DNA of 64,000 bases from Nectonema munidae (taxonomy: Eukaryota > Nematomorpha > Nectonematoida > Nectonematidae), in assembly GCA_030549495.1 (NCBI GenBank), contig JAUIRK010000905.1, forward strand, positions 5,001 through 69,000, in the 5' to 3' direction. Of the stretch, positions 11,725 to 63,040 are shown piece by piece. The position numbers and the translations under genes are program-made. How positions within the stretch are numbered: position 1 is the first letter of the stretch; each line of letters opens with the position of its first letter. Under the pieces are notes generated by a model, which worked only from the letters and a program-made list of their open reading frames with translations, ran no database searches and was not told the DNA's origin.

Positions 11725-13281
11725 ATGTCAGATATAAAACGCAAGCGAACCGATTTCACTCTAAAGCAGAAAAAAGAAATTATTGATGCCGAAAAAAAAT
11801 GAGCCTAATCAGTCCAAGCTGGCCAGAGAAATAAGCAAGAAATGGGGTATTGAAGTGAAGAGAACTACGGTAAAAAGCATTCTCAGCAAAAAGGATGCAA
11901 TCGAGGCTGCAATCAAAACTGGATTTTCATCGAAACGCGTTAAGTTGACGCAGGCTCACGATCCAAATCTCGATGAAGGGGTGCTCATGTGGCTGAAGCA
12001 AGCGAGAGGACACAATCTGCCTGTCAGTGGAAGTCTGGTCAAAGAAAAGGCAATGAAACTGGCCGAGATAATGCACATTCCGGGATTCATGGCAAGCGAC
12101 GGTTGGCTGGACAATTTCAAAAGCGTCACGGCATTACTTTTAAAACAATACAAGGAGAAGCAGGAGCGGTAAATTTGCAATCTCTTTTTGAGTGGCAACA
12201 ACAGGTTCTCCGACCTTTGCTTGCACAATTTTCTGCAGAAGACGTCTTCAATCTAGACGAAACTGGACTCTTCTGGCAGCTGCTACCAAACAAGACCATG
12301 GCTTTCAGAGGAGAGCGGTGCACTGGAGGTAAAAAAAGTAAGCAAAGAATCACTCTTCTGGTTGGAGCAAACATGAGCGGCAACGAAAAGCTTCCTCTTC
12401 TGGTGATTGGCAATTCAAAGAAACCGCGTGCCTTCAAAAACAAAAAAATTCCGGTGACATACAAGGCAAATTCGAAAGCGTGGATGACGGCGGAGCTCTT
12501 CGAAGAAACATTGCGTGAGTGGAACGAGCGACTCGTCAAGCAGGGACGCAAAGTGCTGCTTTGTCTCGCTAACTTCTGTGGCCACCCATCTGATCTCCAG
12601 TTCGACAATATAAAGCTGCTATTTTTTCCTCCTAACACAACATCAATCTCGCAACCAATGGATCAGGGGGTTATAGAGAGTCTCAAACGCCACTACAAGA
12701 AACTTTTGCTCTCTCGCAGGCTTGAAGCCATAGACGAGGAAAGAGAGTTTAAGTTCACGTTGCTTGATGCTCTACACGTTGCCCGGTATGCTTGGGAGCA
12801 GGTTAACAAATCGGTCATCAAAAACTGTTTTGTAAAAGCTAAGTTTGTGGAAGAAGAAATTGATCAGATTGAGCCAAAAGATGAAGAGTTGCTCGAGATT
12901 TGGAATGCTTTGCCTACTGAGGAAAAGATGCACAATAACGAGGAGATTGAGCTAACTGACTTTCTCAATGCTGACGAGCGTCTCGCAACTAGTGGCTCTC
13001 TTCCGCTAGAGGAGATTGCTGAGGAAGTGCTGAAAAGCAAGGAACAAATTGAAAGCGAAGACGACAAGGAAACTATCGAAGAGGAAGTGGTTCAATTCCA
13101 AGAAGCCCAAAGAGCGTGGAGCACTGTTCGAAAATTTATGCAGCATTGTAGCGTAAAGCTCAAAGTGATGCAAGCGTGCGATTGTTTAGATCAAGAAATG
13201 CTTGAGATCCGCCATATGAAAATGCGTCAGACAACCATTTTTGAGAGCTTTGGAATAGGACACAAATATATAAAAAAATAA
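11725..13281 (+). pseudogene. Tigger/pogo transposase, two frameshifts and a catalytic Asp lost
   Basis: The protein starts at ATG 11725 with a CENP-B-type N-terminal helix-turn-helix (MSDIKRKRTDFTLKQKKEII). The frame stops at TGA 11800 after an A8 run. The next frame (about 11783-12172) carries the rest of the DNA-binding region (KLAREISKKWGIEVKR; the second HTH around DEGVLMWLKQARGHNLPVSG; SDGWLDNFK). Near 12120 the frame returns to the first and stays open to 13281 with the DDE_1 domain: VFNLDETGLFW (first Asp), VLLCLANFCGHP and SQPMDQGVIES (third Asp). In the middle motif the expected LDN is LAN (codon GCT at 12568-12570), so the second catalytic Asp is lost. Length and domain order fit Tigger transposases. 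It is almost certainly inactive. Confidence 0.93.
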
Positions 13282-47622: not shown

Positions 47623-50600
47623 CAGTGGTCAGCAACCTTCCCATTCTAAAGAGCGATTTTACTCACTAATTTTGCGAAAAAACAGTCTGGATCCACAAAA
47701 AAATCCACAATTTAAAATTAAAAAAAAACTTGAAAAAAATTAAATTGTTACAATTTTTTTTCCAAAAATGATAAAAACAATTAATTAGAAATTAATGCAA
47801 TTTTGTTTCTGAAGTTCATTGCATATTTTTTCTATGTCGGGAGTATAAGATAAGATGTATATTTTTCATTTTGACACAAGCTTGTAAACTTTCATCTGTG
47901 AGACGAGAACCATAATTACATTTTATAAAGTTCATACTTGAAAAAACTTGTTCGCATAAATATGTTGATCCAAATATAGACAATATACCAAATGCTAACC
48001 CTTCCATGTCTATGTATGTGTCAGGAAGAGAATTCCTAGTTTCAAAAATAAGTTTTGACTTTTTTGGGAGTTTTTCACATTCGCTCCATTTATATGTTCT
48101 TCGACAAGAATAGCCTTTTCTCTCTCAAATTCTTGAAGACTTGATGTCAAAGTTTCGAACTTTTTAACCCATAAACTTTTATCGACAATGTCTCCTCACT
48201 TAATTTCAAGATCCGGCCTCCTCACTTCTATAAATGCGATCGTGTTCAACTCAGATGGTTCAATCTCTAGCGGTGTGACAAGGAAAGAAAGAGTATAGTT
48301 TTTTTTCTGAAATCACCAAATCTTTCTTTGTAAGTGTCTTACATTTTTATAATAGCATGATAGAAATATTCATCATTAATACTTTTGTTTTTTTCTTTAA
48401 ATTCTTTTAAAAGAGGAAAAGTAAACAATTGACCATTTTTAAAATTCTTGGCAAATACCGTCATTTTTCGTTCAAATGACAAAACTTCTTCGAGCAAATG
48501 CCATGCCGTACCTCCCTTTCCTTCAAGTTTTTATTCAAATGATTCAAATGATTTGTCATGTCAATCATGAAAAAAACTTTTCTAGCCAATCTAAGTCTTC
48601 TAATTGAGGATAATTAAATCCTTTGCATTTCAAAAAAGTTTTAACGTGTTCTAAACAAGAAGCAGAGCGCCTAAGTACTTCTCCTTTGGAGAGCCACGTA
48701 ACATTTTTGTGCAAAAAAAGATCTGAGTATATGTTTTGGACTTCTAAAAATGAACAAAAGTGTCGATGACGTAGTCCTTTTGCCATTATTGTGTTTACTA
48801 TCTGGATAACAAGGTTCATCACTTCAATACATTCAGAAGGAAATGTTTGAGTACGTAAGGCTTCTTGATGAACAATGCTGTGAAATGAAATACCAGCAAT
48901 TCTCAATTGAGTGATTTTTGAAGCAATTTCACAAAACATTTTGTACTCCTTTCATGTTTGACGCACCATCAGTAGACACTGACACCAAACGAGGGGTCTT
49001 TATCCCCTTCGCTTCTAAACAATTTAACACAACTTCGCATATGTCTTGCCCTCGTGTTTAGGATTTTAACTGTAAAAGCTCAATAAGTTCTTGCTGTCCT
49101 TTAGAGTTCACATATTGACATAACAAAGCAATTTGCTCACTATCTCTTAAATCAGTTGATCCATCACAGGCAATTGAAAATACATGGGACAAATTGATGT
49201 CATTAATTTGCTTAAAAGTAATGTTTTCTGCCATTTTAATAGTTCTGTCTTTGAGAGTCTTTGCAGATATAGGCATCTCTTTTAACATTTTTATGATTTC
49301 TTCTTTGTCATCAGAAATAAGCTGTTCTGATATTTTAATGAAGGATTCTTTCAAAAACCTACCGCCTGTAAACGGCTTATCTCTTTTGACAATCTCCTGA
49401 GTTGCCACAAAACTTGATGTTTTAATTGAATGAGGAGTTTTAATCCAGTTTTTGAAAAAAGTCTTGTTTACTTCGACTTTATTTTTAAGTTCCGTAATTG
49501 CCATTTTTCTTTCATCCTCTGTAGCATATTTGTTAGCAAATTTAATGTGTTTGTTTTGAAAATGTCTTTCAACATTTATTTTTTTATTATTCGATAACTT
49601 TTCGTTAAATATGGCAAGCACACAGTTAAGCCAGCATCATTAGCAACAAAAGCAAACAAGTTAGTCCAAGCTGTATTAAACTCTCTATTTTCTTCTGAAA
49701 CTTTACTTTTTTTTATTTGTTCATTTTTAGAACTTAAATTTGTCACAACAAAACTGCTTTTAATTAAAAAAATCTGTCATTTGCAAAAAAATCACAATAT
49801 ATAAAGAAAATATTAAAATAAAAACGGATAAATTTGAAATAAAAATTATAAAAAATGAAAGGAATATAGTTTTCGTGTATTTGAGTGTGTATGTGTTTGT
49901 GTGTATAAAATTTAATGTTGTTTTGATGAAGAATTTTTAAATTTATTCAACTTTAATACAGTTGAATCTCAATAATCAGGACGACTTTGTTTTGTGAACA
50001 TTTTTTTCGGAAGATGAGTTATTTCATGTTCAAAATTAAAACCAAACAGAAAATTTTCTTATTTTATTAAATTATAAAATTTATTCTTGAATAATCATGA
50101 ATTTTTTTTTTTGCATTTTTTCTCTTCTTTAGAATAATAATTCCTTCATTCTAATGATTTTTTTATATCAATTTGATTTTCTTTTTCTCTTAATTAAATT
50201 ACTTGAAAATTTGAAAAACTGAAGCAAATTTTTTCATAAATTCTTTCACAAAAAACTCTATTTCTTATCTATATTCATGAATTAAACTTTGTAAGAATAA
50301 ATTTTGAAACGAAAAATACTTTGCACTCACTTGAATTCACCTTTTTTAAAATTGAATCGAGAAAATATGGAAATTGAAAACCAAATCATAAATTATATTG
50401 ATGCGACACATTTGTTTGAAATGATCCGCTTAAAATAACTTGAATCTTCAGCTGCTATGCTTCAAAAGAAAAGCTTCAAAAACTCATTAAAAAATTTTAC
50501 TAAAAAATGAAACTTAATTATTCGGTGGTGATTTTCCGATGGAATAGTAGAACTTTTAAAAAATAATTGGTTAAACTCACATCAAAAAATTATTCTCCTA

Positions 50601-61155: not shown

Positions 61156-63040
61156 CTAATTAAATGATGAAAATATGAAGATAGAAAGGCTCGTAAAAAG
61201 ACAAATATTGGAAATGAATTTTGAAATGGAAGATGCAGAAGATTCGAAATCGGGAATGAACAATTGTGCGATTTGGTCAATTTCTCTGGGTTTTTCAGGC
61301 TTATTGAGTTTTGCCTTCAAATGAGCCTTGTTGTTATTGAGGGTGTTTTCAAATGGATACACGACTTCGTGCTTGATCTTGTTCATTATGTATTCTGCCT
61401 CCTCGCCAATGTCGCCGCATTCTTTTTCGTAAGAAAGATAGGGTTGTAGGGATTTAACAGGCAGAGCTATTTCTTCTATGTTTCGAATGGGCGTGCTTTT
61501 GGCGTCTCTGCACAGATGCTTGACTTTTTCACTCGAGTATATCTTCTGCAGCGCATTCACCAAGTACCCGTTTCTATACCAATTTGTGAGATAGAGGAAG
61601 TGGGCCAGCGTGTTTCTGCTGGTGTCGACTTGTCTGTCAGGAGGCATCGTACTCGCAAAGATGGAGTCACTTTTGTTCTGCACTTGGAAAAGACTGAATA
61701 CAGCGTCCTTTTCCGCGTTGCTTTTGCAAGACCTGACACTGGAGGCCTTTGGGTAGTAGAATAGAAACTGCAAACACTTTTCTTGATTGGACCAGAGACC
61801 TTGAATGTTGGTGTAACTGGCATTGAGTGTATTGAAGACACACTCGGTCAGTAGTTCGTCTCCTGGCTTTATAACTTTTATTTGATTGAAGTGACGTGTG
61901 CGTTGCACTTCTTTCTTGACATCGAGATCCCTTGACATCGGCTTCTGCTCAATCCCATTTCTGAAGTGCTTTGCATTTATATGTCTGACGTAGTTGTTTG
62001 TATAAAAATGATTGGCAAATACAGAGATTCCGTTTCTAGGGAAGGTTCTTTTGGTACACGCTGATGAGCAGTGCCCTTGGTGAAGAAATGCCCTTTGTGC
62101 TTTAGGAATTATCATCCAATCAACGGGCTCAACTCCCAGAGATAAGACACCTGCGTCATACAGTTGAATGTTTATAGAAATCACTCCTTTAAACGCAAAC
62201 ATTTCTGACCTAAGAGTATCGTATTTTTTACCCTTGTACTTTTTAACTAGAACATCTTCATCGTAGAGAACTTCCATCATCAAAAACTTAGGATCTGAAA
62301 AGTCTCCGAAAGAGTAGCCGACACTTTCTGGGTACTCGAATTCTTTGAGAGACCCAGGCGTCCATACAGAAATGACTTCATTGCATTTGTAAATTTCTTG
62401 TGGCGTATTTATTTGATAGTGAGCGTAAACTTTACCCAATTGTACATTTCTCGGGTCGAAGGTTTCATCACAGGCATATAAAAACATGTGTTTAACAACT
62501 TCTTCGCTTTCAATCTTGGGAATCCACTTGATCACGTGCTTTTTAGTTCGAAATTCTGGAAGTCGTACAACAGAAGTAACGTAATAAAAGGAATCCACCA
62601 CTTCCTTCAAACTAGTCTATAAAAGGAAAGTAATTAAGAATGGAAAACTTGATAAGTTATGAGCCTTACTTTGAGTGACAGGTCTACACTTTCGTAAGAT
62701 TCTTTAGTATCCTTGTCAACAGGGTGATGGAACAAGTAAGCTGGCGTGTTTCCTTGCTTTAACCCATAGAACATTAGGGAATTTTGACTAGTCGGTTTTT
62801 GTTGGTGATATCCCCATAAGAGATAAAATAGATTGTCCTTAATAGCGAATGTCAGGAATATATCTGTATGTATGTGCGTAAAAAACGAAAACTTACATTT
62901 AAATCCACGTCAAATGTATCGCATGTTTTGATAGATCTTTTAAATTTGAAAACCGTATGTGTTGAGTTTTCAAAGCCAGAGAAGTAATAACTCTGTTTTT
63001 TGTCTTCAATCGAAATTCTTTGATCAGATAAATAACTATC
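61156..63040 (-). CDS. DBH/MOXD1-like copper monooxygenase family protein, probable pseudoenzyme, 3' exons
   Basis: Three minus-strand exons, 62897-63040, 62670-62837 and 61156-62616, join in phase 0 through introns of 59 and 53 bp (donors GTAAGT and GTAAGG, acceptors ATTAAG and TTATAG). They give 590 residues. Exon 1 ends the DOMON domain (FENSTHTVFKF, then SIKTCD). The last exon holds both copper type II monooxygenase domains, recognised by VVKHMFLYAC, GHCSSACTKRTFPRNGISVF, ECVFNTLNAS, GLWSNQEKCLQFLFYYPK and conserved Cys. Family members use five His and one Met for two coppers. Here, counting from the codon at 62610, HH is K40-H41, VHY is V114-L115-Y116, HTH is Y203-T204-N205 and the Met is K278, so only H41 remains. 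Hydroxylase activity is unlikely. N-S-T and N-A-S sequons and a hydrophobic C-terminus (SNICLFTSLSIFIFSSF) suggest a secreted, membrane- or GPI-anchored protein. The first exons were not found; the TTG at 62610 is not a start. Confidence 0.85.

Follow-up and report, generated by a model that had tools for sequence, protein, structure and literature searches.

Question raised by the locus

Pseudoenzymes are familiar among kinases, proteases and phosphatases, and a gene in the horsehair worm Nectonema munidae raises the question of whether a copper monooxygenase can likewise be kept by selection after losing almost every copper ligand. The gene lies on the minus strand of a 64,000-nucleotide stretch (C602:5001-69000, hereafter the window) and was described in an original prediction as a selected pseudoenzyme of the DBH/MOXD1/PHM family. 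We found that it is, by descent, a member of the DBH/MOXD copper type II ascorbate-dependent monooxygenases and thus a relative of DBH, which makes noradrenaline, and that its genome has another gene with the same replacements at the copper sites. Among the matches listed in a search of open-access titles and abstract starts, no ligandless member of the DBH, PHM or MOXD groups was described.

Copper ligands and gene structure

We aligned the window protein with human DBH, rat PHM and the best 120 of 912 relatives (mostly named DBH or TbH, some hypothetical or unnamed), the 912 having been found with a tardigrade DBH query. The six copper positions follow the human DBH naming in the excerpt of PMC4846438 that we used. 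H262, H263, H333, H412, H414 and M487 were present in 120, 120, 119, 120, 120 and 120 of the best 120 relatives, respectively. In the window protein we found H262 replaced by K, H333 by L, H412 by Y, H414 by N and M487 by K, with H263 retained. The CuH site, predicted to be down to one of its three His, indeed reads K, H, L, and the CuM site, predicted to be without both His and the Met, reads Y, N, K. The CuM histidine motif is flanked by the anchors GISVF and HFRNG and aligns to the tardigrade protein without a gap, so no alignment shift brings the ligands back, and no intact ligands aligned elsewhere. With five of the six ligands replaced, the two catalytic coppers would not be held and hydroxylation would be absent. 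Dicopper catalysis is probably lost because, by analogy, three PHM variants, each mutated at a single CuH His, were without CuH in structures and had dramatically reduced activity, as described in the accessible part of PMC6123673.

Three exons of the gene lie in the window, joined in phase 0 with AG/GT borders. The first coding exon lies beyond the window end (C602:71487-71224, or 66487-66224 in extended window numbering); it has an ATG downstream of an in-frame stop and encodes a hydrophobic leader followed by the first half of DOMON, giving a full prediction of four exons and 678 residues. The borders and phases bear out the clean splice sites of the original prediction in part, as the acceptor of the 62837 exon is without a clear pyrimidine tract. 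The last exon is open as had been claimed, at 486 rather than 484 codons, and its five alternative frames contain 14 to 35 stops apiece. All three Pfam domains expected from the original prediction were matched: Cu2_monoox_C (5.8e-31), Cu2_monooxygen (5.6e-23) and, once exon 1 was added from beyond the window end, DOMON (5.1e-20). An NCBIfam profile search gave no match. The predicted structure of the core has the DBH/PHM core fold, the alignment behind the models being mostly of active relatives, and the C-terminal region of DBH is represented in the protein.

A second gene with the same replacements

Own-genome searches covered 211.6 Mb in 748 contigs. The search with the last exon identified two places, the gene itself and C583:761265-762482 (40% identity, 480-codon open frame). 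The paralogue has four exons (C583:783610-783365, 766565-766422, 762708-762541 and 762482-761040) that form a complete frame of 666 residues, and it shares three intron positions, all phase 0, with the window gene. A reverse search with the last exon of the paralogue returned only these two genes. At the five lost ligand positions the residue is identical in both, and H263 is retained in both; the ligand set of a functional copper monooxygenase is therefore incomplete at CuH and at CuM in the two genes alike. Both have the domain order DOMON, Cu2_monooxygen and Cu2_monoox_C above the Pfam cut-offs, and the aspartates of the proposed DOMON acidic site are retained at 5/6 and 6/6 positions across the pair. 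The identical replacements in the second gene suggest that the protein is kept by selection for a role other than catalysis with copper.

The first introns of the two genes contain a short similar stretch, with 65 and 69% identity in translation over pieces of 17 and 16 residues, which may be either a repeat or old shared sequence.

Selection on the pair

The original prediction argued for selection from the open frame together with the loss of ligands. These two facts alone are insufficient, since the loss is not significantly more severe than at other invariant positions: 1/6 ligands are retained as against 46/92 other positions invariant in at least 55/56 TbH rows (the 56 of the 120 relatives in that alignment), a difference that is not significant (Fisher p 0.21). 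Ligand loss as a stand-alone test of selection was therefore rejected. Of 110 positions conserved in human DBH and in at least 95% of 120 TbH rows, 50 were retained, ligands included; a strict set of 39 positions common to PHM had 19, one of them a ligand. By comparison with the ligands, the cysteines of the invariant set were well kept (9/10 vs 1/6, p 0.008). The window protein retains the DBH disulfide cysteines 154, 269, 295, 390, 503, 394, 565, 466 and 488, and a C-terminal Cys (592) is present, C596 being outside the aligned DBH stretch. C232 and C283, which are paired in DBH, are lost in both paralogues, and the window protein is Cys-free between residues 128 and 241 and between 241 and 270. 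C528 and C530, interchain in DBH, are missing, as they are in the TbH rows. The prediction that fold-defining motifs and disulfide cysteines are kept was thus accurate for the domains, the fold and most cysteines; half of the other family-invariant residues and one disulfide pair have changed.

We compared the paralogues over 572 aligned codons, with the first exon excluded. Their identity was 0.393 and their nonsynonymous divergence (dN) 0.62 by NG86 and 0.65 by maximum likelihood (ML), with a synonymous divergence (dS) that was not computable by NG86 and 17 by ML. Shared four-fold third positions matched at 21/71, near the 0.256 expected at saturation, and the upper confidence limit of this identity corresponds to a distance of ~1.13. 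Neutral simulations were started from the window sequence under an equal-rates model with 200 runs per distance. At a distance of 1.11 they gave a mean identity of 0.142 and at least 14 stops, as against 0 stops in the observed pair, and across every simulated distance there were at least 12 stops and an identity below that observed. The gaps between the paralogues are in frame. Identity within five residues of the former copper sites was 31/46 vs 96/244 elsewhere in the core (p 0.0004), and 25/40 when the ligand positions were left out (p 0.005); these p-values are guides only, because neighbouring residues are not independent and the five-residue window was chosen by us.

We conclude that the pair has not evolved neutrally and that the ligandless protein has been under purifying selection since the duplication. 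By parsimony, the ligand loss would predate the duplication, and the constraint would therefore have acted on a protein already ligandless. A gene that is decaying or has recently died, its frame open by chance, would agree with the changes at half of the other invariants and with the lost disulfide pair. We consider this highly improbable, since both paralogues are intact and the pair shows saturation at four-fold sites, 0 stops and in-frame gaps, far from the neutral expectation. The preference of the original prediction for a selected pseudoenzyme over decay is upheld on these other grounds, namely identical replacements, intact frames and splice sites in the two genes, saturated four-fold sites with a constrained protein sequence, and conserved flanks. 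With catalytic residues lost, the frame intact and purifying selection afterwards, the gene appears to be a pseudoenzyme under selection.

Proposed function

We favor, as reasonably probable, the reading that the two genes form a ligandless DBH/MOXD subfamily whose products are secretory, membrane-held and bind without turnover, as a receptor, carrier or sink. The protein would pass through the secretory pathway and then be retained at the membrane by its C-terminal tail. This route and tether are suggested by the hydrophobic ends of the protein and by MOXD2, for which the accessible part of PMC4125168 gives an endoplasmic reticulum signal peptide and a C-terminal glycosylphosphatidylinositol (GPI) signal. 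The best 15-residue mean hydropathy of the tail is 2.06, as against at most 1.33 in the middle of the protein, and the window protein is probably membrane-tethered. The cleft that separates the two beta-sandwich domains would be rebuilt, with a Lys at one former ligand place per copper site, namely Lys234 and Lys472 in 678-residue numbering; our own suggestion is that these lysines may substitute for the charge of the copper. The rebuilt cleft and the retained DOMON acidic site, which in DBH is a proposed metal-ion site (PMC4846438, in the excerpt used), could together bind a small molecule, a peptide or a partner.

Several observations weigh against this reading. The signal peptide and the tail anchor were assigned from hydropathy only. 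Family-invariant positions retained in both paralogues amount to 44/114, so the change is broad and extends beyond the copper sites. Orthologues were not found: the joined 590-residue protein, used as a query, matched a single sequence, a tardigrade DBH, a two-row profile search gave only that tardigrade DBH again, and a scan of viral contigs gave no match. Finally, both genes have the retained His263 together with a new His410, and another metal could therefore bind.

The last point leads to an improbable alternative, in which the protein has remained a metalloprotein and may be an enzyme, holding one metal or another kind of metal (zinc, manganese or one copper) through His263, His410 and their neighbours for other chemistry. 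Position 410 is Gln in 56/56 TbH rows and His in both paralogues, two residues ahead of the lost His412, and conservation within the core is higher at the flanks of the former active site. However, fewer than two of the original ligands are left at either site, and Lys, Leu, Tyr, Asn and Lys, the residues now at the ligand positions, are poor copper ligands.

Other copper monooxygenases in the genome

We searched the genome for copper-competent relatives. PF03712 matched the two genes and two other places, both short, on contigs C619 and C561, and PF01082 matched the two genes and one C619 place with four internal stops, as across an intron. The C619 letters include VHHM, QVHY and EMC, and those of C561 HAH; we read these places as PHM. 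A locust DBH query detected only the two genes, and PF00351, used as a control for multi-exon genes, gave 12 matches at two loci. A copper-competent DBH, TbH or MOXD gene was not found in the genome with these profiles and the one full-length DBH query, the completeness of the assembly not being established.

This result bears on whether the protein is a regulatory partner of a copper-competent relative, acting through dimerisation, as a chaperone or by competition. The core fold and the DBH C-terminal region are present, and DBH itself is a dimer or tetramer according to the excerpt of PMC4846438. We nevertheless regard this role as unlikely, because the searches above found only PHM-like exons in an assembly of unestablished completeness and because both cysteines that link DBH chains are missing. 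A more specific form of membrane-held binding, in which a lineage without copper-competent DBH, TbH or MOXD uses only the ligandless pair, with a Lys in place of each copper, and has turned the cleft of an enzyme for neurotransmitter synthesis into a membrane-tethered amine or peptide binder, receptor or carrier, is at present a doubtful suggestion.

A third, weak DOMON-like exon was also detected on the minus strand at C336:9149-9325 (E 0.036). It shares 35% identity with the first exon of the window gene, and the 9 kb downstream of it, on the same strand, gave no match to a copper domain. PF00379, the arthropod cuticle family, had no match in the genome and none in the controls, and so carries no weight for taxonomy.

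Features of the window

The features of the gene within the window are collected in the table.

Table. Positions of the monooxygenase-like gene's features in the window
Feature	Position	Strand	Basis
Coding exon 2, second half of DOMON, phase 0	62897..63040	-	AG/GT borders, frame, DOMON match, 55% identical paralogue exon
Coding exon 3, end of DOMON and linker, phase 0	62670..62837	-	Borders, frame, similar paralogue exon
Coding exon 4 (486 codons, 62616-61159) and stop codon (61158-61156): CuH-like and CuM-like domains, C-terminal region	61156..62616	-	Frame, Pfam, predicted fold
Lys at CuH ligand position His262	62491..62493	-	Alignment; same in paralogue
His263, sole retained ligand	62488..62490	-	Alignment; same in paralogue
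Leu at CuH ligand position His333	62266..62268	-	Alignment; same in paralogue
His at position Gln410, new in both paralogues	62008..62010	-	Alignment
Tyr at CuM ligand position His412	62002..62004	-	Alignment; same in paralogue
Asn at CuM ligand position His414	61996..61998	-	Alignment; same in paralogue
Lys at CuM ligand position Met487	61777..61779	-	Alignment; same in paralogue
Hydrophobic tail at the C-terminus, which may be a GPI signal or a membrane anchor	61159..61227	-	Hydropathy only

Elsewhere, the window begins with a perfect (AGA)n run of ~252 copies (1-758) and contains a degenerate satellite with a 31-base unit (~1554-39167), for which we counted 146 matches to one unit at up to 3 mismatches, with 0 expected. 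Transposase remains on the plus strand at 11765-13281 comprise a Tc5-type DNA-binding domain and a DDE_1 endonuclease in two overlapping frames. A hAT dimerisation match on the minus strand at 47819-48124 was below threshold (8.9e-4, 19.4 bits vs a cut-off of 21.4), and the frames 48568-48951 and 49061-49636 near it had no Pfam match.

Comparison with known systems

Two diverged genes with the same rebuilt copper sites offer a testable case of the re-use of a dicopper active site, and the pair bears on the non-catalytic capacities of DBH-like proteins. The window protein is 23-28% identical to the 56 TbH rows. We built a tree of 26 rows from the pair, PHM, human DBH and 22 of the 120 relatives, with no MOXD row. 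The two genes formed a 100/100 clade apart from the others; the branch to the pair is very long, as is that of PHM.

The order DOMON, Cu2_monooxygen and Cu2_monoox_C is shared with MOXD1 and MOXD2, and the hydrophobic ends of the window protein, judged from hydropathy, may be signals like those that the source above describes for MOXD2. According to the same part of PMC4125168, mammalian MOXD2 was lost through nonsense, frameshift, splice and deletion changes, whereas here five of six ligands are gone and the frame is intact; this comparison is one of published descriptions, as the best 120 of 912 relatives include no sequence known to be MOXD. Unlike DBH and TbH, the window gene has lost the ligands and the 232-283 disulfide, and relative to DBH its TLAHFLYLTNWYRN stretch is about nine residues longer and well conserved between the two genes. 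PHM, including its H107A, H108A and H172A mutants, differs in being without DOMON, and the PHM-like exons of the same genome, unlike the window gene, retain HH, VHY, HAH and EMC.
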